This document shows, piece by piece, positions 39,500 to 54,719 of a DNA stretch of 64,000 bases. How positions within the stretch are numbered: position 1 is the stretch's first letter; each line of letters opens with the position of its first letter. The translations under genes were made by a program, and so were the position numbers. The DNA comes from Aurantiacibacter marinus (GTDB lineage Bacteria; Pseudomonadota; Alphaproteobacteria; Sphingomonadales; Sphingomonadaceae), in contig NZ_LDCP01000001.1 of assembly GCF_001021555.1 (NCBI RefSeq), positions 930,001 through 994,000 on the forward strand, read 5' to 3'. Under the pieces are notes generated by a model, which was not told the DNA's origin, did no database searches, and saw only the letters and a program-made list of their open reading frames with translations.

Positions 39500-39818
39500 C
39501 ATCAGTCCCCCCAATGTAAGCATGAAGACTATCACCGCGCGGCACACTTGCAATTGGTTTGTTGGGCGACACCTGGCTCGCAAAACTCGATGTGCCATCC
39601 GGGTCGTCAGTAGGGTCGTGGGCAGAATGGCAGCTCGCGCAAAGCACTTCTGAAAGGCATGATTCCGTTTACAGGAATGCAACCTGTGAGCCCCGCAATA
39701 CAAGGCCTGTTTCCTTAGGGAACAGCGTGTTACCGTATTCCGGGTTTTGCGACCATGATCGGCGAATTGGTTAGCCTAAATTCAGCAAAAACCTGAAGTC
39801 CACCCTTCAAAGGTCAAT
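39500..39818. other. Intergenic region with tRNA-Thr scar before EPS locus
   Basis: About 320 bp between the haloperoxidase start and the activator stop, both on the minus strand. It contains scar copy B (39649-39710). No other gene is supported. Confidence 0.6.
39649..39710. repeat. tRNA-Thr 3'-end scar, copy B (highly degenerate)
   Basis: TTCTGAAAGGCATGATTCCG, then TTTACAGGAATGCAACCTGT and GAGCCCCGCAATACAAGG align with the tRNA-containing core of copies D and E. It marks the left border of the EPS locus. Confidence 0.6.
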
Positions 39819-41252
39819 CTACGAATTCCACCGGCCGCGCATCCGGTAAATTGTTGATGGGCTTACATCGAGCTCTACTGCAGCCTTCGGAATGCTGCCG
39901 CCTGCTCTTTCGATTGCGGCTTCTACAATCTGTCGCTCTGCGTCCGCCAGAGTCATCGGAACGTTGCCGTTCGCGATTGCAGGAGCACTGGCGTAGTCCG
40001 TGATTTGGACGTGTTGAACACGTGATTGTGAATTATGAGGCGCCAAGCCTGCAACTGGTGCGGGGGGCGGGGCTGGGATATCTCTGGCGAAGGTTTCCAG
40101 TTCCAGAACAGGTCCGGGATTCATGACAACGATACGGCGAATTGTATTCTGCAGCTCACGAACATTGCCGGGCCACCGCCGGCTTTGGAGCGACGCGAGG
40201 ATATCTGGTGCCAATTGATCGAACGCTTTGCCTTCCTCGGCTGCGAAGCGATCTAGAAACGTCTGCGCTATCAGCCCGATATCGCCTTCTCTTTCACGCA
40301 AGGGCGGCAGCTCCAAAGGGATGACTGCCAGCCGGTAGAACAAATCCTCGCGGAAGCGTCCCTCTGCGACTTCGAGAGCGGGATTGCGATTTGTGGCGCA
40401 TAGCACACGCACATCGACAGCTTCAGGCCGGTTCGAGCCGACCGGCTGCACCATCCCCGTTTGCAGAAAGCGCAGCAGTTTAACTTGCAGAGCCAGATCC
40501 ATCTCGCAGATTTCATCGAGAAACAGGGTTCCTCCATGTGCTTCCCGCGCGGCGCCCTTCCGGTCGGCAACCGCGCCTGTGAAAGAGCCTTTGACGTGGC
40601 CGAAAATCTCGGATTCGAGCAGGTTTTCCGGAATTGCGCCGCAGTTGATGGCCACAAAACGCTTTCTGGCGCGCTGGCCGGAATTGTGGATTGCTTCGGC
40701 GGCGACTTCCTTGCCCGTACCGCTTTCGCCGGTGATGAAAACTGTGGCGGCTGATCGTGCGACATTTTCGATTGCGCGGTAAACGACCTGCATGCTGGGT
40801 GACTTGCCGATAAAGCCCTGAAACGTGTCACGCCCCACCAGTTTCTGCGCGGTTTCGACCTTCTCCACCAAATCCTGCCGCTCGAATGCATTGCGAACGG
40901 TGGTGAGCAAACGTGGCGGTGCGACCGGTTTGACCAGAAAATCATAGGCGCCCAGCCGCATGGCAGTGATGGCGCGGTTGATCGAGCCATCAGCTGTCAC
41001 AACGATGATAGTGCTCTTCTCGACCAGCCCCGGTCTATCCTCAAGCCACTCCAGCCCGTCATAGTCGGGAAGCTGCAAATCCAGCAGAATGATGTCGAAA
41101 GGTTGATCGGCCCCGGCAATTGCGTCATCCGCAGCGCCGCCCGTTTCGACCATTTGCACATGATGGCCGGCCCCTTCCAGGATACCGGCAAAGGTGTGCG
41201 CGATGGAAATTGCGTCTTCAACAATCAGAATGTTGGCGCCAGCTTTGCTCAT
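39819..41252 (-). CDS. Sigma-54-dependent response regulator (NtrC/LuxO type)
   Basis: About 477 residues. The receiver (1-120) has I-V-E-D13 and phosphoacceptor D58 in L-L-D-L-Q-L-P-D. The AAA+ domain (about 145-380) has Walker A G-E-S-G-T-G-K-E and the sigma-54 contact loop G-S-F-T-G-A (canonical G-A-F-T-G-A). A Fis-type HTH ends the protein (A-G-G-S-I-P-K-A-A-V-E-L-D-V-S-P-S-T-I-Y-R). It is expected to open sigma-54 promoters when phosphorylated. Its ATG overlaps the H-NOX stop by ATGA. A -24/-12 promoter lies before that operon, so it likely autoregulates and controls the EPS operons. No kinase is adjacent; the hybrid kinase at 52107 is the candidate partner. Confidence 0.92.
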   Translation of the reverse strand: MSKAGANILIVEDAISIAHTFAGILEGAGHHVQMVETGGAADDAIAGADQPFDIILLDLQLPDYDGLEWLEDRPGLVEKSTIIVVTADGSINRAITAMRLGAYDFLVKPVAPPRLLTTVRNAFERQDLVEKVETAQKLVGRDTFQGFIGKSPSMQVVYRAIENVARSAATVFITGESGTGKEVAAEAIHNSGQRARKRFVAINCGAIPENLLESEIFGHVKGSFTGAVADRKGAAREAHGGTLFLDEICEMDLALQVKLLRFLQTGMVQPVGSNRPEAVDVRVLCATNRNPALEVAEGRFREDLFYRLAVIPLELPPLREREGDIGLIAQTFLDRFAAEEGKAFDQLAPDILASLQSRRWPGNVRELQNTIRRIVVMNPGPVLELETFARDIPAPPPAPVAGLAPHNSQSRVQHVQITDYASAPAIANGNVPMTLADAERQIVEAAIERAGGSIPKAAVELDVSPSTIYRMRGRWNS

Positions 41253-41785
41253 GCCGGAGGCGCCAGTTTGAAGACTGCCCGGTTGCCGCTTGCATTGGCT
41301 TCCCACGTCAGAATGCGCGGATCTTCGTAATGTTTTATGCTCTGCGCGATCAGGCCATAGGCGATATGGGCCAGGGGACGATGCGATTCATAGGTGACGA
41401 CAAGGTCATCACCGTCGCGTGTTGTGACAACGCTGGGCGGCTGTGCGCCGGGATACAGAATGCGCACTTCTTCATGAATATGCGGCCCGACATGATCGAG
41501 CAGCGCATCGACAGTGGCGTAGAGCTTCATGATATCGGGAAACAGCACCTGAAATCGACCGAACAGAAATGAGCCATATTTGCGGCACAGTTCGTCTCCG
41601 GGAATACCGGACATTTCCGACGCAATATCGACCATCTTCAATGCGTGAGCAGAGGGGTAGGAACCGACGGCGGTGAATGCACCGCCGTTTGGCAGATCGG
41701 CTTTTGTGAGCACTTCATCGGCAAAAACGACGCCCACGGCATCTTCCATGAAATTGACCAACTCGGTAAAAATGACACCCTTCAT
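41249..41785 (-). CDS. H-NOX heme nitric-oxide sensor
   Basis: A 178-residue single-domain H-NOX protein: start M-K-G-V-I-F-T-E-L-V-N-F-M-E, proximal heme ligand H104 in P-H-I-H-E-E-V, conserved Pro117, and the heme-propionate clamp Y132-x-S134-x-R136. Position 141, aligned to the distal tyrosine of O2-binding H-NOX, is Ile, which suggests an NO sensor. Length is normal. GGAG precedes the ATG at 41785 by about 7 nt; an upstream in-frame extension would run through the promoter. Known H-NOX proteins regulate histidine kinases or diguanylate cyclases. Here it is coupled to a sigma-54 activator gene next to an EPS locus. Confidence 0.92.
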   Translation of the reverse strand: MKGVIFTELVNFMEDAVGVVFADEVLTKADLPNGGAFTAVGSYPSAHALKMVDIASEMSGIPGDELCRKYGSFLFGRFQVLFPDIMKLYATVDALLDHVGPHIHEEVRILYPGAQPPSVVTTRDGDDLVVTYESHRPLAHIAYGLIAQSIKHYEDPRILTWEANASGNRAVFKLAPPA

Positions 41786-41820
41786 CAGACACTCCGGCAG
41801 TTTGACTACCTTATTAAGCA

Positions 41821-41837
41821 AGCACGAGACGTGCCAA
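41821..41837 (-). promoter_or_regulatory. Sigma-54 promoter of H-NOX/activator operon
   Basis: On the minus strand TTGGCACGTCTCGTGCT has the invariant GG and GC separated by 10 nt. The predicted start is near 41810, giving a 25-nt leader to the H-NOX ATG at 41785. Confidence 0.82.
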
Positions 41838-41890
41838 ATGCAAAAAGCTTGGCAATCTGCCATTCCGCACATTTGCATAGCGCTAAACTG

Positions 41891-41946
41891 TTGCAAAATG
41901 CAAAACAGCCTTCGCAAATTGCAACATTTTTCGTCGCAAAATGCAC
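41891..41946. promoter_or_regulatory. Three phased dyads, putative activator binding sites
   Basis: TTGCAAAATGCAA (41891-41903), TCGCAAATTGCAA (41912-41924) and TCGCAAAATGCAC (41934-41946) are variants of TTGCA-N3-TGCAA. Centres are 21 and 22 bp apart, so all lie on one DNA face. The middle site is 107-108 bp from both divergent predicted start sites, the usual enhancer distance for a sigma-54 activator. Confidence 0.75.
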
Positions 41947-41997
41947 AGAATGGCAATCTGAGAACGCGATTTGTCCGAAAACTGTCGGAAAACCCAG

Positions 41998-42014
41998 TTG
42001 GCACGATGATTGAA
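41998..42014 (+). promoter_or_regulatory. Sigma-54-like promoter of EPS export operon
   Basis: TTGGCACGATGATTGAA matches the -24 box perfectly with GG in register; the -12 element reads GA rather than GC. The predicted start near 42025 gives a 25-nt leader to the ATG at 42050. The same GA variant recurs at 50425-50441. Confidence 0.7.
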
Positions 42015-42049
42015 AAGCAGCGGACAAATCCCACTCGGAGAATTGTCCC

Positions 42050-43231
42050 ATGCGTGCCACATCATTGACCCTCGCCATTGCCGCGGCCCTGCTTGGGGGG
42101 TGCGTTGCGGGCCATGCTCCTGCCAATTACGAAGGTGCCGCATGGATGCCCCAGCAGCGCGCGCAGCCTGCAACCTATGGCTGCTCCCACACACCCACAG
42201 CACTGCCTGCCATTCCTACAGCGAACATGGCCAACCCCGTCGGACTATTGCTTGCACCGGGGGACAGGCTTCGTCTGGACGTTCTTGGCGATACAGACCG
42301 GGTCAGCGGCGTTTATGTTATCGGTGACGATGGCCATCTGAGCATCAACGGCCTTGGTCGGATCAGTGCCATCGGATTATCGCAGACCGATCTTGAAAGC
42401 CGTCTGCGCACGCAATTGATGGCGCAGGAAATTGTCCGCCCGCTGCGCAATGCCGTGCGCATCAATCTGCTGGAAAGCGCGGGCGTTTCCATCGCTGTAA
42501 GCGGCGCGGTATTTAATCCCGGCAGCGTGCGGGCCGGCGAGCGTACTCCTGAAAACCGCGTCGGCCAGAGCGAAGGCGCTGCATATGGTGATACGAATGT
42601 CGGCCGCACCGTATCCACTGCCCTGCGTGCTGCAGGCGGGGTGCGTCCGGATGCCGATATCCGCCAGATCGGGCTGGTCCGCCATGACCGGATGATGGTG
42701 CTTGATCTGCGCGCCAGCCATGATGGCACCAGCGTGGGTGATGTTCTGCTGGCACCCGGTGACCGGCTGATAGTTCCGTCGACCGGCTGCTTCGATCCCA
42801 ACCTTGTGCGACCATCGGTCGTTACCCAGCCAGGCATACGCGTTCACATGTCCAACTTGTCTCGCCCAGCCAACAACAATGCAGGCGCCGGAATCAGCGA
42901 ACGGACCGGCAGCCTGCCGTATGGCACCCGGTTCCTGCAGGGTTTGGTAGCGATGAATTGTATTGGCGGCTCTGCCATGAATGCAGGGCGCCGCGCCGTT
43001 CTGATCAGCCGCAACCCGATGACTGGTCAATCCGTGGTGGTCGAGCGCGAAGTGGAGGAGCTGGTCCGTCACGCAAATCGTGATGACTTTGATCCCTATC
43101 TCATGCCGGGTGATGCGCTTGCCTGTTACGACAGCCGCTGGATGAATTTGCGTGACGCGGTCAGTCTTGTGTCCAACGCCGCCAGTACTCTGACACCGGC
43201 TATCCTTCTTGAACAGACGGTCACGAACTGA
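42050..43231 (+). CDS. Polysaccharide export lipoprotein (Wza/GumB-like OPX)
   Basis: A 393-residue outer-membrane lipoprotein with lipobox L-G-G-C at Cys18. The polysaccharide-export domain has L-L-A-P-G-D-R-L-R-L-D-V and G-D-D-G-H-L-S-I-N-G-L-G-R-I near 65-105. SLBB-like domains follow (V-S-I-A-V-S-G-A-V-F-N-P-G-S-V-R-A-G and D-V-L-L-A-P-G-D-R-L-I-V). Members form the outer-membrane channel for the polymer. GGAG precedes the ATG. Its stop overlaps the next start by one base. It is the first gene of an operon under a sigma-54-like promoter. Confidence 0.9.
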   Translation: MRATSLTLAIAAALLGGCVAGHAPANYEGAAWMPQQRAQPATYGCSHTPTALPAIPTANMANPVGLLLAPGDRLRLDVLGDTDRVSGVYVIGDDGHLSINGLGRISAIGLSQTDLESRLRTQLMAQEIVRPLRNAVRINLLESAGVSIAVSGAVFNPGSVRAGERTPENRVGQSEGAAYGDTNVGRTVSTALRAAGGVRPDADIRQIGLVRHDRMMVLDLRASHDGTSVGDVLLAPGDRLIVPSTGCFDPNLVRPSVVTQPGIRVHMSNLSRPANNNAGAGISERTGSLPYGTRFLQGLVAMNCIGGSAMNAGRRAVLISRNPMTGQSVVVEREVEELVRHANRDDFDPYLMPGDALACYDSRWMNLRDAVSLVSNAASTLTPAILLEQTVTN

Positions 43232-44655
43232 TGTTGCAACAAGCAACTACCCAGGCTGAGCACCAGCCGCGCCGCCTGGTTCGCCTGTGGCACATCGTGC
43301 GCGATGGCCTGCCATCTTTTGGCCGCTACCGCCGCTACATCATGGCAATTGCTCCGGCTTTGCTGCTGGTATGGGGCATAACCGCTGCATATCTGGTTTT
43401 CGCACCGGCTAAATACTCCAGCGCGACCACGCTGATTCTGCCCGGTTCAGGCGTTGGCGGCTCGCTTAATCTCAATGATGTCGGCCAGGCGACCACGGTA
43501 ACGTCTTCCGCGTTTGCCAGCACGTCGCTCAGTCCCACCGAGAACTACAAGCGTCTATTGATGTCGGATACTACGCGCACACGCACAGCGGAAAGCCTTG
43601 GGGAAGATCCGGCATCGTTTCCGGAACCCAGCATCAAACTGGTGGACCAGACCAATCTGATCGAAATCCGCATCACCGGCGCGACACCGGAACTCGCCCA
43701 AGCGCGCGGCGAAGCGCTGCGTTCGACATTCCTGACAATCCTGGCAGAACTGCGGCGCGATGAAGCCGCGGGACGCGAAGATGCGGACCTCGACTATATC
43801 GCAGAGCTTGAAGGGCAGGTGCAGGAAACGCAGCGGGCCTTGCTGGAATTTCAGGGCCGCACTGGGCTCGTGAGCCTTGAACAATTCGATACACGCGTTG
43901 GTGCGGTTGATAATTTGCGGGCACGCGAGCGGGAAGCGCGTGCTGGACGGGCACAGCAAAGCGCGGTGCGCTCACGCCTGGCCTCTGTGCTCGATATTTC
44001 GCCTGCCAACGTTCGCCGCGCACTGCGTTTGAAAGCTGACCCGGTGTTCCGGTCGCTGCTTGATCGTTATGCCGATATCAACACCGAAGCGACCGAAGCG
44101 AGCGGCACTCTGGGGACGGCTCATGCCGTACGCGAAGAGCTGGAAGCAGAGCGTGATGCCTTGCGCAGCGAGATCGTATCGCGTGGCGGCGCGGTTAGCG
44201 GCCTTTCCAGCCAGGCCTTGCTCGGTTTCGCAGACATTTCAGTCAGCGATGGCCGGGAACGCATGTTCGAAGCATTGATCGGCGCCGAAGGCATGGCCGC
44301 TGGCGCGAATGCAATCGTTTCGGAAATCCGGAACCAGATCGGCGAACAGAACGCGCAAAATCCGCAATTGGTTGTGCAGGCAAGCGAACTTGCAGATCTG
44401 CTGCGCGAACATCGCGTAGCAGAGGCAACGTTTTCCTCCGCGCTGGCACGGCTCGACACCAATAAGGCTGACCCGTTTGCTTCCTATCCGTTGGTCCAGA
44501 CTTTTGAAGTGCCTTCCTTGCCAGCGGATCAGTCCTCTCCTTCGCTTCTGATTGCCTTGCTGGGCGCAATCGCTGCATCCATTTTCATTATCATGGGATT
44601 TGCTCTCGCATGGCTTCGTCAACCGATCCTTGCCAAATTGCTGCCGAGCGCCTGA
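43231..44655 (+). CDS. Polysaccharide co-polymerase/chain-length protein (Wzz-like), kinase-less
   Basis: A 474-residue inner-membrane protein with N-terminal membrane segment (I-M-A-I-A-P-A-L-L-L-V-W-G-I-T-A-A-Y-L, about 38-57), a long periplasmic region including coiled-coil stretches (Y-I-A-E-L-E-G-Q-V-Q-E-T-Q-R-A-L-L-E), and a second membrane segment near 440-463. No C-terminal tyrosine-kinase domain exists, so this is a PCP without its kinase, and no separate kinase lies in the locus. It should couple polymerase and exporter and set chain length. Start overlaps the previous stop (TGATG). Confidence 0.85.
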   Translation: MLQQATTQAEHQPRRLVRLWHIVRDGLPSFGRYRRYIMAIAPALLLVWGITAAYLVFAPAKYSSATTLILPGSGVGGSLNLNDVGQATTVTSSAFASTSLSPTENYKRLLMSDTTRTRTAESLGEDPASFPEPSIKLVDQTNLIEIRITGATPELAQARGEALRSTFLTILAELRRDEAAGREDADLDYIAELEGQVQETQRALLEFQGRTGLVSLEQFDTRVGAVDNLRAREREARAGRAQQSAVRSRLASVLDISPANVRRALRLKADPVFRSLLDRYADINTEATEASGTLGTAHAVREELEAERDALRSEIVSRGGAVSGLSSQALLGFADISVSDGRERMFEALIGAEGMAAGANAIVSEIRNQIGEQNAQNPQLVVQASELADLLREHRVAEATFSSALARLDTNKADPFASYPLVQTFEVPSLPADQSSPSLLIALLGAIAASIFIIMGFALAWLRQPILAKLLPSA

Positions 44656-45887
44656 TCGCTGGCACCATCGGCGCTACGTGGCTGCTATGGCTGGTGGGCG
44701 GGCTCTATATCGCGGGGCCCTCCCTCGGCTGGGTTCTGGCCATGATCGCAGGATGGAAATTGTTTGCAGCGCCAGCACTGCCAGCCGCGCAACGGCCCTT
44801 GCAGCTTGGTGCATTAATATGGTCGCTGTTGATCGGGATGGCCGCGATGGAGGTCATTTTGTTGACCGGTCATGCCACCAATGGTTTTGGCTTCGGGCAA
44901 ACCATCAAATCGTCAATTGGGTGGGCCAAGGGCTGGGCGCTGATCGCGCTGTTCCCGTTTGCCGCAGCTGTTTTGAACGTGCGCGCAGAAGTTATTTACC
45001 GCGCCGTGTGCAAATTGGGCCGCCAGACACTGGTTGTGCTGCCGATCTTCGTGATCGCACCTTATGCGGGATTGCCGGAAATGCTTTGGGTTTCGCCCTT
45101 GCAGATCTTCGGCGGATCTGGGCCTGAGTACTTCGCGACAATCCTCTACACGATCGAACCTGGCGCGGGGACACCGCGCTGGCAGTTTTTCGCGCCTTGG
45201 TCGCCAGCAGCCGGGATGGTCGCTGTGATACATGCACTTTGCGCCGCCGAGGAGAAAAACATCCGTTGGAAACTTGTCGGCATTGCTGCGGCTTTGCTGA
45301 TGGCTATCCTGTCCCAGTCGCGCCTTGCTCTGGTAGCCCTCGTGCTAATCTGGCCGGTGAGCTTTGCGATTTCTCGCCTCGGAAAATCGTGGATCTGGTG
45401 GCTCGGTGCTCCAGCTATCCTCGCGCTCGGGCTGCTCGCACCTATCCTGGTGGAAATCGCTGACCAACTCGTCAGCGATTTCAGCAGTGCCCGCGCAGAC
45501 AGTAGCCGCGTTCGCGCTGCGCTTGGCCGCATTGCAATGGAACGTTGGCAGAACGAAGCGCCGTGGTTCGGGCATGGTATCGTTGAAAGCGGTCCGCATC
45601 TGGTCGAATACATGCCCATCGGCAGCCATCACAGCTGGTACGGACTGCTGTTCGTAAAAGGTGTGACCGGCTTGCTCGCACTTGCCATTCCGCTTTTGAT
45701 CGCTGCGCTGGTCATGGCGAAGCTGGCCATATCCCATCCGCTTGGCCGCATCGGTCTGTCTATGGTGCTGGTATTGGTATTCTACAGCTTCGGAGAGAAC
45801 CTCGAGATACTGGCGTATCTGTATTGGCCTGGTCTGGCTCTTCTGGGCGTCGCCGCCCGGCAATCGGTAGCTGCAAACCTGCATTGA
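44610..45887 (+). CDS. O-antigen ligase/polymerase family (Wzy-like)
   Basis: A 425-residue protein with about ten membrane segments and a periplasmic loop containing S-R-V-R-A-A-L-G-R-I-A-M-E-R-W and G-H-G-I-V-E-S-G, as in the Wzy_C/WaaL group. It would polymerise lipid-linked repeat units at the periplasmic face. Its start overlaps the 3' end of the co-polymerase gene by 46 nt, implying strict coupling. I favour polymerase over ligase from the EPS context. Confidence 0.8.
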   Translation: MASSTDPCQIAAERLIAGTIGATWLLWLVGGLYIAGPSLGWVLAMIAGWKLFAAPALPAAQRPLQLGALIWSLLIGMAAMEVILLTGHATNGFGFGQTIKSSIGWAKGWALIALFPFAAAVLNVRAEVIYRAVCKLGRQTLVVLPIFVIAPYAGLPEMLWVSPLQIFGGSGPEYFATILYTIEPGAGTPRWQFFAPWSPAAGMVAVIHALCAAEEKNIRWKLVGIAAALLMAILSQSRLALVALVLIWPVSFAISRLGKSWIWWLGAPAILALGLLAPILVEIADQLVSDFSSARADSSRVRAALGRIAMERWQNEAPWFGHGIVESGPHLVEYMPIGSHHSWYGLLFVKGVTGLLALAIPLLIAALVMAKLAISHPLGRIGLSMVLVLVFYSFGENLEILAYLYWPGLALLGVAARQSVAANLH

Positions 45888-46001
45888 TTACCGTCATGGT
45901 CTGGCACCGCTTGTAAGCGCTTGCCTTCAGCCCGTGCAATTGACATGCGGCGCGCACCGCAGGCCTGACGCCAGATCCACTACACGCTATTTGCAAAACG
46001 G

Positions 46002-46032
46002 AAAAAACCCCGGTTGCATCGCGCAACCGAGG
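46002..46032 (-). terminator. Terminator of the glycosyltransferase operon
   Basis: CGGTTGC (46011-46017) pairs with GCAACCG (46023-46029); on the minus strand the stem is followed by GGGG and then T6. It lies 45 nt after the stop of the last glycosyltransferase gene. Confidence 0.75.
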
Positions 46033-46076
46033 TCCCTGTGAGCCGTCACTCGATAGCGACACGAAGAGCAAACGGC

Positions 46077-47132
46077 TTAGCAATCGGCAGCCAGAAGAGT
46101 TTCGCCGGTGTCCAGGTCCGGCTGGCATTCGCCCAGTGCGCGCCGAGCCTGCACGAACAGGGCAAGCCAGGCTGACACACGGCTGGTTTCTGCACCTGCC
46201 ATGGAAAGCTGTGCCTTGCGTCCCATCCTGGCCAGATCGGCCCGTGCAGCTTCTTCTATTGCGCGCGCAAGGCTTCCCGGGCGGCTGCAATCGTCCACGA
46301 TGCCGCAACCCAAGACCTGTTCAGGCAGGCCATCGCAATCACTGACGAGCACTGCGCGCCCAGCCATGCGCGCCTCTGCGGCGACCAGGCCGAAGGCTTC
46401 CCTGCGCGACGGAACAACGATCAGATCGCATTGCTCATAGAACCGGGCGACGTCATCCACCTTGCCAGCGAAGCGGACATTCGGAACGCCCCTGGCCAAG
46501 GCGCGGAAAAGGTCTTCATCCGGTCCGGCGCCAGCTAGGGTAAGTTCGAATTTGCTTCGTGGCAACAGGCCCATCGACCGGATCAGCGTATCAAATCCCT
46601 TGGCCTCGTCGAAACGACCGATAGCGCCGATTTTAAGAGGCTGGGTGGGATCAATTTCCAGCGGAGAAACCTTATCAAGTCCGCGCGTACCGCTCCATGG
46701 ATGGATGACGCGGATCTTCGCGGCCGGTACAACACCAGTCGATAACAGCCATTCACGCTGCGCTTTGGATACCGCAACAATTTGATCGAAATTGGCGTAC
46801 ATCAACTTCAGCATCGCCCGAAAACGGCCCGTGTCAGGCACATGTGCAGCTTCCCAAGAAGCTGTGTAAGTATGTTCGATATGCACCAGATACGATCGGC
46901 GATGACGTAGGCGGAGCATGAAATAGAACGGCAAGCTCGCCCAGTTCGGAGTGGCGTGGTTTATCACAATTTCAGCATCGAGGCGCGGCGCAGTCACTCT
47001 GCGCGGATCGATAGGGATGACCCGGCTGCGGGCAAACTCACGCAGATCGGGGTGATCGAACAGACTCAGCGCTTTGGTGACGCCGCCCATGGCGAAATCC
47101 GTATTCAAGTGAATGCAGCTCATGAAAGTCAT
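46077..47132 (-). CDS. GT4-type glycosyltransferase
   Basis: A 351-residue GT-B enzyme. N-terminal H-L-N-T-D-F-A-M-G-G-V-T-K, middle R-F-D-E-A-K-G-F-D-T-L-I-R, and the nucleotide-sugar motif E-A-F-G-L-V-A-A-E-A-R (E-x7-E) near residue 255-265. Retaining transfer of a sugar to the growing lipid-linked unit on the cytoplasmic face. The start overlaps the preceding GT2 stop by ATGA (47129-47132). It is the last gene before a terminator. Confidence 0.88.
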   Translation of the reverse strand: MTFMSCIHLNTDFAMGGVTKALSLFDHPDLREFARSRVIPIDPRRVTAPRLDAEIVINHATPNWASLPFYFMLRLRHRRSYLVHIEHTYTASWEAAHVPDTGRFRAMLKLMYANFDQIVAVSKAQREWLLSTGVVPAAKIRVIHPWSGTRGLDKVSPLEIDPTQPLKIGAIGRFDEAKGFDTLIRSMGLLPRSKFELTLAGAGPDEDLFRALARGVPNVRFAGKVDDVARFYEQCDLIVVPSRREAFGLVAAEARMAGRAVLVSDCDGLPEQVLGCGIVDDCSRPGSLARAIEEAARADLARMGRKAQLSMAGAETSRVSAWLALFVQARRALGECQPDLDTGETLLAADC

Positions 47133-48124
47133 GCCGCACCTGCCTGGCCGAGCGTGCGTTGCGCCATGCGGGCAAGCATGGTCTGCGGCAAAACCGCACT
47201 CGCCAATGCTGCCGCGGCAGTCACAAGCGACTTCTTCGGCTCTTCAAACAGAATTCCGGGATAGCGGCGCAGCGCCTGAATCGTGAGCGACCGTGCAAAT
47301 CCGTAATCACCCAACTGCAAAGCGCGCCGCGCCAGATAGCGCAGCTGATAAGCTGCAGCCGCATTGCCATGATCAGCGATCAGGTCAGGAGCATAATCAC
47401 GCGCCTTATCGATGACACGCTGCCAGGATTCAAACTGCCGAACGATATTGGCCGACAGACCGCCGCCGACGATGCGATATTCCGTCAGAAGAGGGTCAAT
47501 GCCTTCGAAGCGGCAAGCGAAACCGGCTGACATGCGGATCCACAGCTCAATATCCTCGGACTGGCGAAAATTCTCATCAAACCAGCAGGGGCGGCCCGTC
47601 TCTTGAGGGTGGAGAAATCGCACCAGATCCAGCGCTGTGCGGCGGATTACCGGCGCTGAACCGTTACCGACGGGATTGCGTTTGAGGATATGTGCGGCCG
47701 ATATGCCATTCAGTCTGGGGCGCATCGCGAGAGCCAGTGGCTTGCCTTGCGCATCGATCATTTGCGAGCCGGAATAGCTTACGTCGACCATGCGGTTTGT
47801 GCGCAGGTGGATCGCATGCAGCATCAGTTTATCGCGGTGCCAGCGATCATCGGAATCGAGCAATGCAACAAACGATCCGCTGGAATTGGCGATGCCGGTA
47901 TTTCGCGCACCTGCCAGACCGCGATTGGGCTGGCTGACAATGCAGATCCGGCCATCCTGAAAGCTGCGCACAATGTCCATACTGCTGTCACTGCCGCCAT
48001 CATCAACAACGATCAGTTCGAAGTTTTCGTAGGTCTGGTCGAGCACGGACTGGATCGCTTCTGCGATATAGGCTTCCACATTGTAGACAGGCATGATGAC
48101 GGAAATTTTTTCGGGAGAATGCAT
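47129..48124 (-). CDS. GT2 glycosyltransferase
   Basis: About 331 residues of GT-A fold: I-S-V-I-M-P-V-Y-N-V-E-A-Y-I-A at residue 7, F-E-L-I-V-V-D-D-G-G-S-D-S-S near 35, and D-S-D-D-R-W-H near 95 (the D-x-D type metal site). It resembles the neighbouring gene at 48151, so they probably arose by duplication. The ATG at 48124 is the only start close to the domain and lies 26 nt after the preceding stop. An upstream frame without the motif exists and is not used. Confidence 0.88.
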   Translation of the reverse strand: MHSPEKISVIMPVYNVEAYIAEAIQSVLDQTYENFELIVVDDGGSDSSMDIVRSFQDGRICIVSQPNRGLAGARNTGIANSSGSFVALLDSDDRWHRDKLMLHAIHLRTNRMVDVSYSGSQMIDAQGKPLALAMRPRLNGISAAHILKRNPVGNGSAPVIRRTALDLVRFLHPQETGRPCWFDENFRQSEDIELWIRMSAGFACRFEGIDPLLTEYRIVGGGLSANIVRQFESWQRVIDKARDYAPDLIADHGNAAAAYQLRYLARRALQLGDYGFARSLTIQALRRYPGILFEEPKKSLVTAAAALASAVLPQTMLARMAQRTLGQAGAA

Positions 48125-48150
48125 GGAAATATACCTTGGATAAGTGTGTT

Positions 48151-49098
48151 TCAGGCGAAAAGGCGCAAGCGCATGGATGAAGGCATCGCCCCGGCAGCAA
48201 ATGCTGCAATCAGGGTCGCGCCACCGCGGCGCATGTCGGACAGAAAGGCTGAGGGGTTGAGCGAAAGGCCGCGCAAGGCGTAGCGGCGGGCATCCGCAGG
48301 AGGATTGCCGCCACGCAAGGCACGGCGCGCAAGATAGCGGCAGTAAATGGCTTCGGCAGCGGCGGTATCTTGGTCCGCACCATAGAGACCGGTCAGTTCG
48401 CGCCATCCGGCATACATCTGCTCCAGATTTACAGAGAGGCCGCCCGGCGAGAGACGGTAGCCCACCAAAAGCTCGTCAATGCCGGAGATGCTCTCCCCCT
48501 GCGTCACCGCGCGGGCCAGCCACTCCTGATCTTCGGCATAATTCATGCCTTCGGCAAATCCCCCGATGCGTTCGAATGCGGCGCGGGTCACCACAAGGTT
48601 TGATGTGGTGCAGACGGGATTCTCGCCAATGATCTGTGCGAGTGTCAGATCTCCGTCAGGCACGCTCGACAATGTGCGCTTCTGATGTGACGCGGAACAG
48701 TGCCTTTCAACAAAGGCAATCTGCGCATAGCTTCCGGAAAGTGCAGGATTCGCCAAATGGTAGGCGTGATGGGCGGCAAGCTTTTCCGCATGCCAAAGAT
48801 CATCGGAATCGCAGAATGCCAACAATCCACCTTGCGCAATTGCAGCGCCGCGGTTGCGCGCAGCGGAAACGCCGCCATTCGGCTGTGCGACCAGTCTGAC
48901 ACGCGGATCACTGCCAGCCAGACGCAGCATTTTCAGCAAGCTGTCATCGCTAGAACCATCATCGACCAAAATCAGTTCGAGATCTTCGAGCGATTGACTG
49001 CGGATTGAAGCAATTGTGTCTTCAATCGTTTCGGCAGCATTGTAGACCGGAACAATCACGGAAAAAGTTGGTCGGTTTTGGGCGGCATCATAGATCAT
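48151..49098 (-). CDS. GT2 glycosyltransferase
   Basis: About 315 residues with F-S-V-I-V-P-V-Y-N-A-A-E-T-I near the start, L-I-L-V-D-D-G-S-S-D-D-S and C-D-S-D-D-L-W-H-A-E-K-L. The C-terminal half matches the gene at 47129 in E-x-I-Y-C-R-Y-L-A-R-R-A-L-R-type patterns. ATG at 49098 overlaps the flippase stop by 4 nt, so translation is coupled. Adds a sugar to the repeat unit; donor unknown. Confidence 0.88.
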   Translation of the reverse strand: MIYDAAQNRPTFSVIVPVYNAAETIEDTIASIRSQSLEDLELILVDDGSSDDSLLKMLRLAGSDPRVRLVAQPNGGVSAARNRGAAIAQGGLLAFCDSDDLWHAEKLAAHHAYHLANPALSGSYAQIAFVERHCSASHQKRTLSSVPDGDLTLAQIIGENPVCTTSNLVVTRAAFERIGGFAEGMNYAEDQEWLARAVTQGESISGIDELLVGYRLSPGGLSVNLEQMYAGWRELTGLYGADQDTAAAEAIYCRYLARRALRGGNPPADARRYALRGLSLNPSAFLSDMRRGGATLIAAFAAGAMPSSMRLRLFA

Positions 49099-50390
49099 GA
49101 GCTTGCTCCGTTCAGGGCTTGAGGAAATGTTGGGGAAGTTCGGCCTGGCAGGCGAAACAGTATGACGAATGCGATAGGCACCTGGATCAACCAGAGCGCG
49201 GCAACATAGGCCCATGCAGCAGTGGTGAGGCCGAAGGAGGTACCGCCGCACAGGGCAAGCAAGGCGCCAGCAGAAGCGGCCAGCGCGATGGCAGCGTCAC
49301 GCTCCGGCTGGCCCGTGGCGCGCAGCCACGCGGTGCATAGCGCGCCGAAGATGGCAGGTATGCCGGCAAGGCAAAGGATCGCCACCAAAGGTGCAACAGA
49401 GGTCCATTGCGCGCCGAACAACAGCGGCACGTAAATGTCGGCCAGCAGAACCTGTGCCGCGATGATCGGCACAAACAACACAAGCGACAGGATCGTGGCC
49501 TGGATGAGCCGCTGGCGGCGCTTGGAATTATCCTTCTCCGAACACAATTGCGGAAAAAGAACAATGGAAAGTGCGGCGATAAAGCTGTTGGTGATCCCCA
49601 CTCCGGCGTTGAAGGCGAAATAGTAATAGCCGAGCGCTTCGGTGCCGAGCAGCGCACCGATCACAACCTTGTCCAGTTGCTGGCGTGCAGCGACCACAAG
49701 TTCGGTGCCCAATACGCCCGCTCCGAAGCGCATGAACTGCCTTGCAGGGGCAGGGGTGACGCCGGGCGCGGGAGACCATTTTCGCGCCCGGCGAACCAGA
49801 ATAAGCCAAACCGGAGCAGTCAGAAGTTTGGGCAAGACGATTGCCCAGGCACTTGGCCAAGCGAGCGCTAGCGCCATGGACAGAGCGTGATCGAGCATGG
49901 TCTGCGCCGCGCCGATGCGCGCTGTCGTACCGAGCCGTCCGTCACGCATCAGCAGGAATACCCGAACCAGACCGCCCGGCATCAGCGCATACACGCCGGT
50001 CAGAACAACCAGCATCAAGGCGATCTCACCCTGTGCAAACGCCAGCCAGATAATCGCAGCGACAATCAGCTGCACCAGCGCGACGCCCGTACACCATATA
50101 TAGAACAGCCGGTGCGCTGCATTGCAGATGCCTGGCAGCTCTGCATCGCTGGCCGCGATGATGCGCTGCCCGATACCGCTATTGGCAAGAACGCGGACGA
50201 TTTCGAAAACGGCAAGAGCAAGCGCTGCCACGCCGATTTGCGCAGGGGGAACTTGGCGCGCGATGACAATGATCGCGAATACGCGCAAAATGCGTGAGCC
50301 TGCTTCCGCCAGACCGTAGGCCACCAAGCCGCGCAGGATAGGCCTCAGCCCTTCCGGCAGCATGGATTCAAGGCGTTCAAGCAAAAGCAT
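49095..50390 (-). CDS. Oligosaccharide flippase (Wzx-like)
   Basis: About 431 residues with about twelve to fourteen membrane segments, MATE/MVF-like; motifs R-I-L-R-V-F-A-I-I-V-I-A-R-Q-V-P-P-A-Q-I-G-V-A-A and the tail L-L-F-G-A-Q-W-T-S-V-A-P-L-V. It moves the undecaprenyl-linked repeat unit to the periplasm. An in-frame ATG at 50441 would place the start inside the -24 box of the promoter at 50425-50441. The ATG at 50390 has AGGAAC upstream and gives a 24-nt leader, so it is preferred. Confidence 0.86.
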   Translation of the reverse strand: MLLLERLESMLPEGLRPILRGLVAYGLAEAGSRILRVFAIIVIARQVPPAQIGVAALALAVFEIVRVLANSGIGQRIIAASDAELPGICNAAHRLFYIWCTGVALVQLIVAAIIWLAFAQGEIALMLVVLTGVYALMPGGLVRVFLLMRDGRLGTTARIGAAQTMLDHALSMALALAWPSAWAIVLPKLLTAPVWLILVRRARKWSPAPGVTPAPARQFMRFGAGVLGTELVVAARQQLDKVVIGALLGTEALGYYYFAFNAGVGITNSFIAALSIVLFPQLCSEKDNSKRRQRLIQATILSLVLFVPIIAAQVLLADIYVPLLFGAQWTSVAPLVAILCLAGIPAIFGALCTAWLRATGQPERDAAIALAASAGALLALCGGTSFGLTTAAWAYVAALWLIQVPIAFVILFRLPGRTSPTFPQALNGASS

Positions 50391-50424
50391 TTCAAGGTTC
50401 CTGGCATCAATCCACCAGTCACCT

Positions 50425-50441
50425 TTCAAGAGGCGTGCCAA
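50425..50441 (-). promoter_or_regulatory. Sigma-54-like promoter of flippase/glycosyltransferase operon
   Basis: On the minus strand TTGGCACGCCTCTTGAA has a perfect -24 box and GA in place of GC at -12, as at 41998-42014. The predicted start near 50414 is 24 nt before the ATG at 50390. Confidence 0.7.
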
Positions 50442-50487
50442 TCGCTCTAACCCGCAGAATTCTGTCCTTCCTGGACTATTTCAGGTT

Positions 50488-50549
50488 TGGCAAAATGCAA
50501 AACGCCCCGGTAAATTGCGAAATGCATTGATTGGCATTGCAAAATGCGA
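50488..50549. promoter_or_regulatory. Second set of three dyads, putative activator sites
   Basis: TGGCAAAATGCAA (50488-50500), TTGCGAAATGCAT (50515-50527) and TTGCAAAATGCGA (50537-50549) match the dyads at 41891-41946. Spacings are 27 and 22 bp. The middle site is 107 bp from the minus-strand predicted start and 130 bp from the plus-strand one. Confidence 0.75.
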
Positions 50550-50623
50550 ATCCGTTTGGTCTGTCGACCATCTGGAAGCTCATGAATTATCGTAAATACC
50601 TGACTATGAACGTATTTTTCAGG

Positions 50624-50640
50624 CTGGCACGCTTCCTGCG
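50624..50640 (+). promoter_or_regulatory. Sigma-54 promoter of the WecG/PGT fusion gene
   Basis: CTGGCACGCTTCCTGCG has GG and GC 10 nt apart, an excellent -24/-12 match. The predicted start near 50651 gives a 23-nt leader to the ATG at 50674. Confidence 0.85.
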
Positions 50641-50673
50641 AATGCTCCGTCGTTACCGATGGAAGGATTTGCC

Positions 50674-52113
50674 ATGTACCAGTCGTTTGATACCTCTACC
50701 GCACACGCCGCAGCCCAGCATAACAGTTGGGCAACGCGCTCCTTGCCTTCCCGCTTTGCTAGCAAGCCGAAGACCACCAGCCTCTTTGGCCTCGATCTGC
50801 TTGACGGTGACAAGGTCGCCACGGCTCGGATGCTCGTGGAAAAGGCGATCCGCCGCGAACGGGCAACCGTTGGTTTTATCAATGCGCACTGCGTCAATGT
50901 CGCGGCCAAGGACGCGGCCTACCGGGACGCGCTTCAAAACTGCGACCATCTGCTTCCTGATGGATCAGGTGTCCGCATAGCCGCGCGGCTTGCCGGTAAG
51001 TCTTATCGCGACAATCTCAATGGGACTGATCTCTTCCCGCTCATTTGCGATGAAGCCGCGCAGCGCGGTGCCACACTGTTTCTGCTTGGTGGCGAGGACG
51101 GCGTTGCAATTGGCGCGGCGCTGGAAATGATGCGCCGTTATCCTGGTCTGCGGATCGTGGGCGCCGAGCATGGCTATTTCCGCCGGGAGGACACCGCGGG
51201 CCTGATCAGCCGCATCAATGGCAGCGGCGCAGACATGCTGCTCGTAGGTTTTGGCGTCCCGATGCAGGAACGCTGGCTGGCCGACCATGCCGGTAGCATC
51301 GCGGCATCCGTACAGATGGGTGTAGGCGGCCTTTTCGATTATTATTCCAATCGCATCCCGCGCGCTCCCCAGGCGGTTCGTGAGATGGGTTGCGAATGGG
51401 TATGGCGCCTTGCGCAGGAGCCGCGCCGGCTTGCGGAGCGATATCTTATCGGGAATGCGGCATTTCTGGCGCGGGCCTGCATTCATGCCGTCGAGGTCCG
51501 CACCGGTGTAGCGCCAACCGCGGCTATCAAGCGTGCTGGCGATTTCATGGCGACCTTTATCGGCCTGATGCTTCTTGCGCCCATCTTTGCTGTCATCGCG
51601 CTTGCCATCAAGCTGGAAGATCGTGGACCGGTTTTCTTCAGCCAGACGCGCATTGGGGAAGGCGGAAAGCCTTTCAGGGTGTGGAAGTTCCGCAGCATGA
51701 TTATCGATGCGGAACGCGTCCGCGCACAGCTAGAGGCGCATTCGGACCGTGATTCAGTGTGCTTCAAGATGCGGCGTGATCCGCGCATTACTCGGGTCGG
51801 AGCATTGCTACGTCGTACGTCGATGGATGAATTGCCGCAGCTTTTCAATGTTTTGACGGGTGATATGTCTCTGGTGGGCCCGCGTCCTGCTCTGCCGCAG
51901 GAAGTGAATGCCTACTGGGACCGCGCGCTGCACCGCTTGCATGCAAAACCGGGCATCACTTGCACGTGGCAGGTTTCCGGCCGCGCCGAGATTCCGTTTG
52001 CCGAGCAGGTGGAAATGGATATCGATTACGTCGAGCGGCATAATCCTCTGCATGACATCGTCCTTCTCCTGCGAACGGTGCCTGCTGTCATTACTGGGCG
52101 AGGCGCTTATTGA
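50674..52113 (+). CDS. WecG/TagA glycosyltransferase fused to initiating sugar-phosphate transferase
   Basis: About 479 residues in two enzymes. Residues about 30-275 are a GT26 (WecG/TagA/CpsF) domain with I-N-A-H-C-V-N-V-A, L-L-P-D-G-S-G-V, L-F-L-L-G-G-E-D-G-V and G-V-G-G-L-F-D-Y-Y-S. Residues about 285-479 are a WbaP/ExoY-type polyprenyl-phosphate sugar transferase with one membrane helix (F-I-G-L-M-L-L-A-P-I-F-A-V-I-A-L), K-F-R-S-M, T-S-M-D-E-L-P-Q and I-T-C-T-W-Q-V-S-G-R. The protein could attach sugar 1 to undecaprenyl phosphate and then sugar 2. ATG at 50674 follows GGAAGGA. Its stop overlaps the convergent kinase gene by 7 nt. Confidence 0.9.
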   Translation: MYQSFDTSTAHAAAQHNSWATRSLPSRFASKPKTTSLFGLDLLDGDKVATARMLVEKAIRRERATVGFINAHCVNVAAKDAAYRDALQNCDHLLPDGSGVRIAARLAGKSYRDNLNGTDLFPLICDEAAQRGATLFLLGGEDGVAIGAALEMMRRYPGLRIVGAEHGYFRREDTAGLISRINGSGADMLLVGFGVPMQERWLADHAGSIAASVQMGVGGLFDYYSNRIPRAPQAVREMGCEWVWRLAQEPRRLAERYLIGNAAFLARACIHAVEVRTGVAPTAAIKRAGDFMATFIGLMLLAPIFAVIALAIKLEDRGPVFFSQTRIGEGGKPFRVWKFRSMIIDAERVRAQLEAHSDRDSVCFKMRRDPRITRVGALLRRTSMDELPQLFNVLTGDMSLVGPRPALPQEVNAYWDRALHRLHAKPGITCTWQVSGRAEIPFAEQVEMDIDYVERHNPLHDIVLLLRTVPAVITGRGAY

Positions 52114-54719
52114 GCGGCGGCCTGCTCTTGCTCCAAATCGAATGCGCGGCGGATTTCCGATAAGGTTTCCGCCGCCAGCGATTGAAGCGTGCCCGCGTCT
52201 ACATCATTTTGTCCGCTTAGTGCTGCTGCCAACCGCGACGCTCCAATATTGCCCGCAACCCCTATCAGACTGTGCTTCGCGCGCCGCGTAGCATCAGCAT
52301 CACCGGCCTTTTTCGCCGCGACCAATTGCTCAGACAATTGAGAAATATCCTGCATCGATGCACACAGGATCGCCTCTCGGCGTGCTTCCGGGATGGCCTC
52401 AAGAAGCATGGACACCGCTTCCATATCCAGAATGCTGCCATGATCGCCCGCTTCCGAAGATACGGATGGGGAGAGCGTTGTGGCCGGGCCGAGCAAATCC
52501 CGCATTGCCGCGTAAAGCATTTCACGGTCGATCGGCTTGGGCACCAACGCATCCATACCTGCGGCCAACAGCTTGTCCTGCTCTTCCCGCATGACATGCG
52601 CAGTAACGCCGATAATGGGTATGCCTTGATAATCGGCCTGCGATGATCTGATTGCCCGGGTTGCTTCGATCCCGTCCATTTCAGGCATGTTGACGTCCAT
52701 CAGCACGAGCTGGAAATCTTGGTCCTGCAGCAGTTCGATTGCTTCTATACCATTGCTGGCCAAATCATATGTACACCCGATCTGCTCCAGGATCGCCTTG
52801 ATTACCTCCCGGTTCGTCTCGACGTCCTCTGCGACAAGAACGTGCGATCCCCCAAGTGAAATTGGAATTGGTGCAGGGCCCTCTAATTGCAGCGTATCGG
52901 CACCGCCGTTACCTTCCTCTGCCAACGGAATTTCGAACCAGAAGGTGCTTCCCTTACCGACCTTACTCGAAACGCCGATGCGCCCGTCCATCGCTTCGAC
53001 AAGACGCCTGCAGATTGCGAGGCCAAGTCCGGCGCTCTGGCCTCCGGTGGTCTCCATGTTCTGCAGCCGATTGAAATCCATGAACAGCCCTTTTTGCTGT
53101 TCTTCGGAAATGCCTGGACCTTCATCGACGACCTCGATGCGCAAATTGCTATCAACTGCGAAAGCCCGCAAGCGAACGCGTCCTTTGCCCGTATATTTGA
53201 GCGCGTTTGACAACAGATTGTCGATAAGCTGCCGGAACCGGACCGGGTCCAACATAGCTACGACAGGAAGATTGCCGCCAAGTTCGCAATGTAGAGATAT
53301 GGCAGGATTGGTGTTTGCTACGCCCCAGAATTCGGTGATCCCTTCAATAGTCCTTGAAAGGGTCAGCGGAACCGGTTGCAAATCCAGTTTGCCGGCTTCT
53401 GCCCTGACAATCTCGATGATATCGTTCAGCAGGACATTCAGCTGCTTGCCGGATTCCTTCGCCAACTCCAATTGGCGAGCTTGCTTGGTATCAAGCTTGC
53501 TGTCGGCCAGAGTTTCCAACATCCCAAGTATGCCGTTCATGGGTGTGCGGATGTCATGACTCATCATGGCGAGAAAGCGGGATTTGTAACGATTCGCCGT
53601 CTCAGCCTCGATCCTTGACCGGCGAAGCTCCCCGGAAAGCGTAACCAGTTGCTGAACCCGCTCGGACAGCTGCGTTCCTTTCGTCCGAAGCTCCAGCTCG
53701 ACCTGCTTGTAGCGCGTTACATCAGAATAGATCCTGATCATCGTGCCATCATCGGGGCCAACCACATTGACCTGAATGATCCTCCCATCCTTGAGATTGC
53801 GCTCGAAGGTCTTGTCGACAATCTTCCCATTGTCATCACGCTCTATCTCGTGAACGCTTACTGCATTGCTTGGTTGATCCGCCCCAAGGACCGGGGGTGC
53901 CTCGAACGGCAGACCAATCTTTAGAGACGCTGCATCGAATTCTATTATTTCGGCCAAGGGCGAATTCCACGTAACCAGTTTCAGGTCAGGGTCGAAGACT
54001 GCAATTCCTTGCGGAACCGCGTCCATAATGGCCCGTAGAAATTCCGATGTCTTTTGCTGTGACAGCTGTGCTTCTTCGAGCTCGCCAGTCAGTTTGGTTA
54101 GATTCCTGACGCGACGTTCCGCCATTAGACCTAGCGCGGCAACCCTGCGCTCAGTCCGACGCTGCTCAGTAATATCCTGGACTGTTCCAAAAACCGATTG
54201 CCACTTGTTTGCGCTGTCGATCTCACGCCGCAGCGTCCAGCGGAGCCAGCGCACCTCGCGATCGCTTTTGCGGATAATGCGGTGCTCGTATGTGTGATCC
54301 AAGGTGGACGAAACCTCGGCCAAAAACTCGATAGTTTGCCTGGCTACCCGTTTCCGATCCAGCGGATGGACTGCATCGGCCAACATTTCCGGTCCGACAG
54401 TTTCCCGTGCATCACGGCCCAATATTACCGCGAATTCTGGCGAAAACTGATATTGCCCGCCTCTGGATCGATGCATGGTCGCGATGCGGGCGGTGCGCTG
54501 CGCCGCCAGCAATTGCCTATTGCCCAGTTCAAGCCGCTCAAGAAGGATCTCTTCTCGCGTGCGCAACTCCGAGTTTATCCGGTCAAGCTCACGCGCACGC
54601 CGTTCAAGCAGCGACTCTGCATCCAGGCGAGCCTGCTCGGACCTGCCGAGCCGCCGGAGCAAGATTTCAATTTGTTTCTCTGGCGTGAGAGTCTCGAGTT
54701 GCGTCTTCAGATCATGCAT
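52107..54719 (-). CDS. Cytoplasmic PAS hybrid histidine kinase with REC and Hpt
   Basis: 870 residues and no membrane segment. Order: coiled coil (1-80), PAS (about 85-185), coiled coil, second PAS (about 225-340), HisKA with H388 in S-H-D-I-R-T-P, HATPase with N-x-x-x-N-A-L-K-Y-T and D-E-G-P-G (about 495-600), receiver with D675 in V-L-M-D-V-N-M-P, and Hpt with H816 in A-K-H-S-L. An internal relay H388-D675-H816 should end on an external receiver; the orphan sigma-54 regulator at 39819 is the obvious one here. A soluble kinase suits control by the soluble H-NOX protein, though direct pairing is inferred. Convergent 7-nt overlap with the fusion gene. Confidence 0.9.
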   Translation of the reverse strand: MHDLKTQLETLTPEKQIEILLRRLGRSEQARLDAESLLERRARELDRINSELRTREEILLERLELGNRQLLAAQRTARIATMHRSRGGQYQFSPEFAVILGRDARETVGPEMLADAVHPLDRKRVARQTIEFLAEVSSTLDHTYEHRIIRKSDREVRWLRWTLRREIDSANKWQSVFGTVQDITEQRRTERRVAALGLMAERRVRNLTKLTGELEEAQLSQQKTSEFLRAIMDAVPQGIAVFDPDLKLVTWNSPLAEIIEFDAASLKIGLPFEAPPVLGADQPSNAVSVHEIERDDNGKIVDKTFERNLKDGRIIQVNVVGPDDGTMIRIYSDVTRYKQVELELRTKGTQLSERVQQLVTLSGELRRSRIEAETANRYKSRFLAMMSHDIRTPMNGILGMLETLADSKLDTKQARQLELAKESGKQLNVLLNDIIEIVRAEAGKLDLQPVPLTLSRTIEGITEFWGVANTNPAISLHCELGGNLPVVAMLDPVRFRQLIDNLLSNALKYTGKGRVRLRAFAVDSNLRIEVVDEGPGISEEQQKGLFMDFNRLQNMETTGGQSAGLGLAICRRLVEAMDGRIGVSSKVGKGSTFWFEIPLAEEGNGGADTLQLEGPAPIPISLGGSHVLVAEDVETNREVIKAILEQIGCTYDLASNGIEAIELLQDQDFQLVLMDVNMPEMDGIEATRAIRSSQADYQGIPIIGVTAHVMREEQDKLLAAGMDALVPKPIDREMLYAAMRDLLGPATTLSPSVSSEAGDHGSILDMEAVSMLLEAIPEARREAILCASMQDISQLSEQLVAAKKAGDADATRRAKHSLIGVAGNIGASRLAAALSGQNDVDAGTLQSLAAETLSEIRRAFDLEQEQAAAQ

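Follow-up and report, generated by a model that had tools for sequence, protein, structure and literature searches.

In Vibrio fischeri, nitric oxide (NO) sensing is connected to polysaccharide production by the circuit HnoX-HahK-SypF-SypG-syp (PMC12369376), of which SypG is a sigma-54 activator (PMC10162802), and a second H-NOX pathway, leading to LuxO, is described in V. harveyi and V. parahaemolyticus (PMC6759604). According to a review, H-NOX genes are found mostly beside genes for kinases and cyclic di-GMP enzymes (PMC8738867). For the alphaproteobacterial pair H-NOX/HnoK of Caulobacter, the respective study identified no direct phosphorylation target (PMC12329717). Here we describe a locus of Aurantiacibacter marinus (Sphingomonadales, Sphingomonadaceae), in which genes for an H-NOX, a hybrid kinase, and a LuxO-like sigma-54 activator accompany the genes for an exopolysaccharide (EPS). 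It is contained in a stretch of 64,000 nucleotides, in the following called the window (positions 930,001 to 994,000 of contig NZ_LDCP01000001.1; G000:C1:930001-994000), of a genome of 2.84 Mb. A first-pass annotation of this DNA had regarded an H-NOX coupled directly to sigma-54 activator and EPS promoters as undescribed, a claim that fails in view of the precedents in V. fischeri (PMC12369376) and in V. harveyi and V. parahaemolyticus (PMC6759604).

Comparative sequence analysis makes it probable that this locus constitutes a self-contained H-NOX/hybrid-kinase/LuxO-like sigma-54 regulon for one exopolysaccharide. Regulators and EPS genes are packed into one 15-kb block, consisting of (window positions):

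39819..41252, minus strand: LuxO-like NtrC-type response regulator and sigma-54 activator (Response_reg, Sigma54_activat, and HTH_8; 477 residues; receiver D58; GSFTGA loop)
41249..41785, minus strand: H-NOX (PF07700; 178 residues)
42050..45887, plus strand: genes for EPS export protein, chain-length protein, and Wzy polymerase (Pfam/NCBIfam scans)
46077..50390, minus strand: genes for Wzx flippase and for two GT2 and one GT4 glycosyltransferases (Pfam/NCBIfam scans and translations)
50674..52113, plus strand: WecG/TagA-type glycosyltransferase fused to a polyprenyl sugar-phosphate transferase (PGT; PF03808 and PF02397)
52107..54719, minus strand: soluble hybrid kinase PAS-PAS-HisKA-HATPase-REC-Hpt (family scans and residue check)

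The 4-nt overlap that joins the H-NOX gene to the activator gene (ATGA, 41249-41252) was confirmed, and so was, by Pfam/NCBIfam scans, the full Wzx/Wzy-type EPS set of the first-pass annotation: flippase, polymerase, initiating transferase, export protein, and chain-length protein are all encoded, the last one with a weak match. Domains PF02563 and SLBB_2 are present in the export protein and Wzy_C in the polymerase, and the chain-length protein is matched by EpsF alone (TIGR03017, 36 bits) and by no Pfam family. The second GT2 (48151-49251) was assigned from its translation only, the ATG at 50390 was chosen as start of Wzx rather than the TTG at 50441, and the start codon of PGT (50674) was deduced from the position of its promoter. 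No sugar-precursor genes were recognised among the window proteins scanned. The gene rpoN is present in the same genome.

Conservation was studied in 199 genomes of the home family, sampled evenly from a larger group, where gene content and co-occurrence could be computed directly. H-NOX occurs in 33 of them and the activator in 24 (the identical 24 at E<=1e-120 and E<=1e-95), all of which possess H-NOX, and each of the 19 genomes with the Wzy EPS polymerase has both H-NOX and activator. The H-NOX gene directly precedes the activator gene in 22/24 genomes, the two genes mostly overlapping or touching; in the remaining two, G014 and G020, H-NOX adjoins a hybrid kinase, and the separated activator of G020 carries its own sigma-54 site and operator. 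A kinase gene adjoins the PGT gene in all 18 EPS loci for which that flank is available (window included, G082 left out). This distribution supports the view of H-NOX, Hpt kinase, activator, and EPS operons as a single unit. Tandem pairs of hybrid kinases adjoin hnox or PGT in L041, L048, L070, and many EPS loci; the window has a single kinase. L051 (G130) is a decayed locus with a truncated H-NOX, fragments of Wza and kinase, and no activator match, which still holds two operator-like sites beside the truncated H-NOX and a promoter site of the wza type.

Four candidate sigma-54 promoters (-24/-12 sites) precede the operons of the block:

41821..41836, minus strand: P1, hnox-activator operon, TGGCAC-N5-GTGCT, one mismatch
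41999..42014, plus strand: P2, wza operon, TGGCAC-N5-TTGAA, one mismatch
50425..50440, minus strand: P3, wzx operon, TGGCAC-N5-TTGAA, one mismatch
50625..50640, plus strand: P4, PGT gene, two mismatches

Given the starts of Wzx at 50390 and of PGT at 50674, the leaders of P1 to P4 measure 25, 25, 24, and 23 nt, reproducing the sites and lengths of the first-pass annotation. Sites with at most two mismatches occur 45 times in the whole window, where 43 are expected; as this is chance level, a promoter scan of a single genome is weak and was not used as evidence alone. The sites become convincing because their position is conserved in relatives and controls are near zero. A sigma-54 site is found upstream of H-NOX in 24/24 activator-positive genomes (at most two mismatches, -41 to -64), upstream of Wza in 20/20 (at most one mismatch, decayed L051 included), upstream of Wzx in 17/18, and upstream of PGT in 16/18, and control regions contain one in 1/19 rows for Wzc, 2/19 rows for GT2a, and 0/23 for the in-operon activator. 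For Wzx, the scan in relatives was anchored on an aligned residue, the automatic open reading frame (ORF) beginning upstream of the site. These promoter sites keep their sequence and position in relatives whose proteins are 36-66% identical to those of the window. The GC of the -12 element is retained in all hnox (24/24) and PGT (16/16) sites, and the -12 element of wza and wzx is mostly TTGA, the usual C being retained in 4/20 wza and 1/17 wzx sites. Such a two-tier promoter design, with C-less wza and wzx and GC-containing hnox and PGT elements, is conserved across the relatives.

Between the divergent promoters lie predicted binding sites for the activator. The LuxO operator is TTGCAWWWTGCAA (PMC10162802, PMC10328515), and the qrr1 site of V. 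cholerae listed in Table 1 of PMC10328515 is identical to the operator at 41891. Two groups were found:

41891..41946, no strand assigned: three LuxO-type operators of the hnox-wza intergenic region (41891 perfect, 41912 one mismatch, 41934 two mismatches; 21 and 22 bp apart)
50488..50549, no strand assigned: three LuxO-type operators of the second promoter intergenic region (50488 one mismatch, 50515 two, 50537 one)

As in a LuxO-type regulon, these predicted operators are situated upstream of sigma-54 promoters. Within each three-copy row they are spaced 21-27 bp, and spacings of 19-23 bp are repeated in relatives. The copy at 41891 is the sole perfect one in the genome, and 4 of its 18 copies with at most one mismatch fall into the two promoter intergenic regions, where 0.0035 are expected; at up to two mismatches the window contains 15, compared to 7.3 expected. 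The remaining 14 single-mismatch copies are distributed over 9 genic and 5 intergenic positions. Because none of these 5 off-locus intergenic copies has a sigma-54-like site (at most two mismatches) within 300 nt, this search, made for copies with at most one mismatch, favours a regulon confined to the block.

A single-mismatch operator is present upstream of H-NOX in 18 of the 24 activator-positive genomes, in which 14/19 perfect operators belong to this locus. Among the 14 perfect operators of 24 genomes lacking the activator (9 of these genomes with H-NOX), none is at H-NOX, and the H-NOX loci without activator (7 scanned of 9, with L054 and L056 left out) show an operator upstream in 0/7 and a sigma-54-like site in position in 1/7 (L050). 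Five of the 19 perfect operators in activator-positive relatives are off-locus. One of them, in G003 (L092:6567), a genome with hnox and activator and no Wzy match or EPS locus, occurs about 150 bp before a gene for a PEP-CTERM protein, which is likely a further target of the activator. Judged by ORF position, the others coincide with the beginning of one gene common to G146 and G198 and fall inside reading frames in G153 and G180, and are probably due to chance. The SypG motif was considered as well and shows no excess (94 matches at up to two mismatches in the window, 117 expected). One-mismatch SypG matches overlap the operators at 41912 and 50537, with a further one at 41951, so that a SypG-like reading is still compatible, LuxO giving the best fit to these sites. 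Since a LuxO-like protein is encoded and LuxO-type operators are present in both regions and mostly conserved, a control of all four operons by the activator, that of the activator itself among them, is probable, as the first-pass annotation had proposed; the support is comparative.

Outside the home family, an activator homologue (E<=1e-100) was detected in 79 of 346 genomes of an order-wide sample. From the better matches, 17 loci of 16 genomes were selected, and H-NOX, kinase, and activator occur together in 10/17, all 10 in family f5. In 7 of these 10, all of genus g100, the three genes follow one another on the same strand, and operators are found before H-NOX (7/7) and before a sugar-transferase gene (7/7). 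In L131 and L138, analysed for ORFs and Pfam domains, the three genes touch or overlap, and their neighbours code for a fusion of a sugar transferase with an export protein, for an exosortase, and for a polysaccharide pyruvyl transferase. A like regulatory unit is thus placed on a different polysaccharide system. The association of H-NOX with sigma-54 activators and EPS loci, for which the first-pass annotation had suggested searching across Sphingomonadales, is complete for the activator within the 199 home-family genomes and extends to these outside loci, and it is missing at order level in 20 of the 44 genomes with activator homologue that were searched for H-NOX.

The H-NOX of the window scores 97 bits for PF07700 (curated cut-off 25.5) and, aligned to PDB H-NOX and relatives, possesses the proximal His104 and the YxSxR motif as YESHR. 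Judged by the spacing from YxSxR, Ile141 sits at the position equivalent to Tyr140, the distal Tyr of Tt H-NOX, which we take to mark oxygen-binding H-NOX. The absence of a distal Tyr is what is expected of NO-selective H-NOX, the predicted ligand being NO. Among activator-linked H-NOX, the proximal His is present in 23/24 and YxSxR in 24/24, with Ile or Val at the position equivalent to Tyr140. In the H-NOX of L049 (G020), whose gene lies beside that of a kinase, Asn takes the place of the proximal His in the alignment. The window protein contains a single Cys (Cys67), and its named relatives are from Erythrobacter sp. EC-HK427 (76%) and Alteraurantiacibacter aestuarii (74%). The activator matches NF041946 (LuxO) with 520.7 bits over almost its full length, below the equivalog cut-off of 800, and its closest PDB sequence match is a LuxO (5ep0); it is best described as LuxO-like, not as LuxO. 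Its next-best NCBIfam match is PrsR (TIGR02915) with 376.4 bits, below the cut-off of 502.6. Two of the genome's other activators served as controls: L002 scores 554 bits for NtrC and 342 for LuxO, and L007 is without a LuxO match at E<=1e-80. An assignment of the activator to PrsR or NtrC is disfavoured by these family scores.

The soluble hybrid kinase with Hpt of the first-pass annotation holds, with PAS, HisKA, HATPase, REC, and Hpt domains and without any strongly hydrophobic stretch in its sequence. Relay residues are H388 of HisKA, D675 of REC, and H816 of the C-terminal Hpt (AKHSL), the Pfam match for Hpt being weak (22.9 bits, cut-off 24.6). HqsK/HnoK-type kinases are recognised by a gene next to hnox. 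In G014, G020, and family f5, kinases do adjoin H-NOX; in the window the kinase gene is about 10 kb away, and its partnership with H-NOX therefore needed testing. Such a test is offered by a segment at its N-terminus:

54561..54674, minus strand: N-terminal segment, kinase residues 16-53, putative H-NOX docking helix, common to H-NOX-neighbouring effectors elsewhere

This segment is common to H-NOX-adjacent effectors of a Vibrio, two Paracoccaceae, Persicobacter, a Comamonadaceae bacterium (an EAL protein), and family f5; it has 38 residues in the window kinase, and its majority consensus is LxRxxxRExxARxEAExLLEEKSxALYxANxxL. A profile of seven segments, searched against 32,125 reading frames (1.79 Mb, loci overlapping), matched only H-NOX neighbours and EPS-locus kinases, as read from coordinates, the window kinase weakly (E 0.016). 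In a second search of the 199 home-family genomes, employing a 16-row segment alignment devoid of home-family sequences (E<=0.01), matches were obtained in 17/33 genomes with and 0/166 without H-NOX, and 17/18 matches are no more than about 14 kb away from H-NOX. The window kinase is the sole match in its genome (E 1.3e-5). The Fisher value for this co-occurrence is 7e-16, inflated by kinship among the genomes. The common segment thus indirectly supports a control of the kinase by H-NOX. That the helix of about 38 residues is a general, output-independent docking module is a proposal we make tentatively, with slightly more doubt than confidence. By this module, stand-alone H-NOX would control kinases in Sphingomonadales, Paracoccaceae, Vibrio, and Bacteroidota and an EAL protein in Comamonadaceae, and in the present clade NO would be wired to a LuxO-type activator acting directly on EPS promoters, with a LuxO operator code spanning two classes of Proteobacteria and different outputs. 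The docking segment is the boldest new element of this study and is not established.

The mechanism that we infer, from heme and ligand over docking, phosphotransfer, and DNA binding to transcription and the sign of the NO effect, is as follows. H-NOX, probably by binding NO, would contact the N-terminal helix of the kinase and shift its balance between kinase and phosphatase activity. Phosphate would travel from His388 via Asp675 and His816 of Hpt to Asp58 of the activator, which in its phosphorylated form would bind the spaced TTGCAWWWTGCAA operators in both divergent intergenic regions and drive the sigma-54 promoters of its own hnox-activator operon, of wza-wzc-wzy, of the wzx-glycosyltransferase operon, and of PGT. 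By analogy with Vibrio, NO would be expected to lower EPS.

Several observations weigh against this reading. In Caulobacter, NO-bound H-NOX left the kinase uninhibited and Cys oxidation inhibited it (PMC12329717), so NO need not be the effective state of an H-NOX. One segment match (G175:C23) is far from H-NOX, and 16 of the 33 genomes with H-NOX are without a match at E<=0.01, the sensitivity of the segment search therefore being modest. Six of the 24 activator-positive genomes lack an operator with at most one mismatch upstream of H-NOX (L040, L044, L047, L063, L066, and L049), and 4 of the 9 genic near-operators elsewhere have a sigma-54-like match (at most two mismatches) within 300 nt. 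Within the home family, G437 encodes the activator together with EPS genes and no H-NOX, order-level genomes without H-NOX were mentioned above, and the Fisher values for co-occurrence take no account of kinship.

Part of these observations would be accommodated if kinase and activator were the true pair controlling EPS and H-NOX a modulator with another role, be it redox, heme-free, or a direct action on the activator as operon partner. The position of the H-NOX gene directly before the activator gene and not the kinase gene in most activator-positive genomes, the genome G437, and the Cys-dependent H-NOX of Caulobacter (PMC12329717) would all suit such a role. However, the residues conserved in activator-linked H-NOX, proximal His, YxSxR, and Ile or Val in place of the distal Tyr, the single Cys of the window protein, and the H-NOX-linked segment on the kinase argue against it, and we regard it as unlikely. 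The genomes sampled are kin, and an EPS island inherited or lost as a block could also explain the synteny, kinase and activator then serving other inputs such as cell density, as Vibrio LuxO integrates quorum signals (PMC6759604). Descent of this kind would hardly fix promoter sites in sequence and position while the proteins diverge to the identities given above, nor place the same operators on different polysaccharide genes beside the H-NOX-kinase-activator cluster of another family, and this explanation seems improbable. The unremarkable number of promoter-like sites in the window, together with the A that replaces the usual C of the -12 element in P2 and P3, might suggest that these sites are fortuitous and that the EPS genes use ordinary promoters; considering that 16 to 24 genomes keep them in position, compared to almost none in the control regions, and that operators lie upstream of them, this possibility is very remote. 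A self-contained regulon in which H-NOX acts through the kinase on the LuxO-like activator is thus the reading we prefer.

Around the block, translations indicate two serine hydrolases resembling beta-lactamases/transpeptidases and a protein similar to vanadium haloperoxidase/PAP2 (36224-37594, 38282-39703, and 57518-58681).

With one kinase, one activator, and four promoters in one block, the system is compact enough that the control of a polysaccharide by NO could be completely reconstituted, in contrast to the Vibrio circuits, on which several kinases converge. With it, H-NOX is connected to a LuxO-type regulator and the corresponding operator in a bacterium other than Vibrio. The N-terminal segment provides a testable explanation of how stand-alone H-NOX select their partners, and distant partners might be recognised by it in sequence data.

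Like the window, V. fischeri combines the NO sensor H-NOX, a hybrid kinase, an Hpt relay, a sigma-54 activator, and a polysaccharide output; in that organism hnoX-hahK form their own operon, Hpt is provided by SypF or LuxU, and several kinases converge (PMC12369376). In the window, Hpt is inside one kinase, hnox belongs to the operon of the activator, and everything is contained in one 15-kb block. The H-NOX-HqsK-LuxU-LuxO pathway of V. harveyi and V. parahaemolyticus shares with it an H-NOX-controlled hybrid kinase feeding Hpt and LuxO (PMC6759604), and the operator TTGCAWWWTGCAA is the same (PMC10162802, PMC10328515). Whereas Vibrio LuxO drives Qrr small RNAs with autoinducer inputs (PMC6759604), the window operators are directly before EPS genes, and the window activator stays below the LuxO equivalog cut-off. 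The H-NOX/HnoK of Caulobacter is likewise an alphaproteobacterial H-NOX with a hybrid HqsK-like kinase, there encoded adjacently, but responds to oxidation of zinc-ligand Cys (PMC12329717), whereas the window H-NOX has only one Cys. A sigma-54/NtrC-type regulator tied to EPS and PEP-CTERM genes is also known as PrsK/PrsR from PEP-CTERM/EPS loci (PMC9850573). This likeness extends to the two second-family loci scanned, which carry exosortase and EPS genes, but the window activator differs from PrsR (376 against a cut-off of 502.6). We know of no PrsK/PrsR system with H-NOX. Among the open-access matches listed, neither this arrangement in Sphingomonadales nor the common N-terminal docking segment is described, a weak absence, as papers on the H-NOX/kinase interface of V. 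cholerae and Shewanella cited in PMC8738867 lie outside that coverage. The logic proposed for the system is the one known from V. fischeri and V. harveyi/parahaemolyticus, of which the block represents a compact alphaproteobacterial version, apparently with autoregulation. What sets it apart is its packaging, i.e., one block, Hpt in a single kinase, and hnox in the activator operon, the clade in which it occurs, and the predicted LuxO-type operators directly on EPS promoters.

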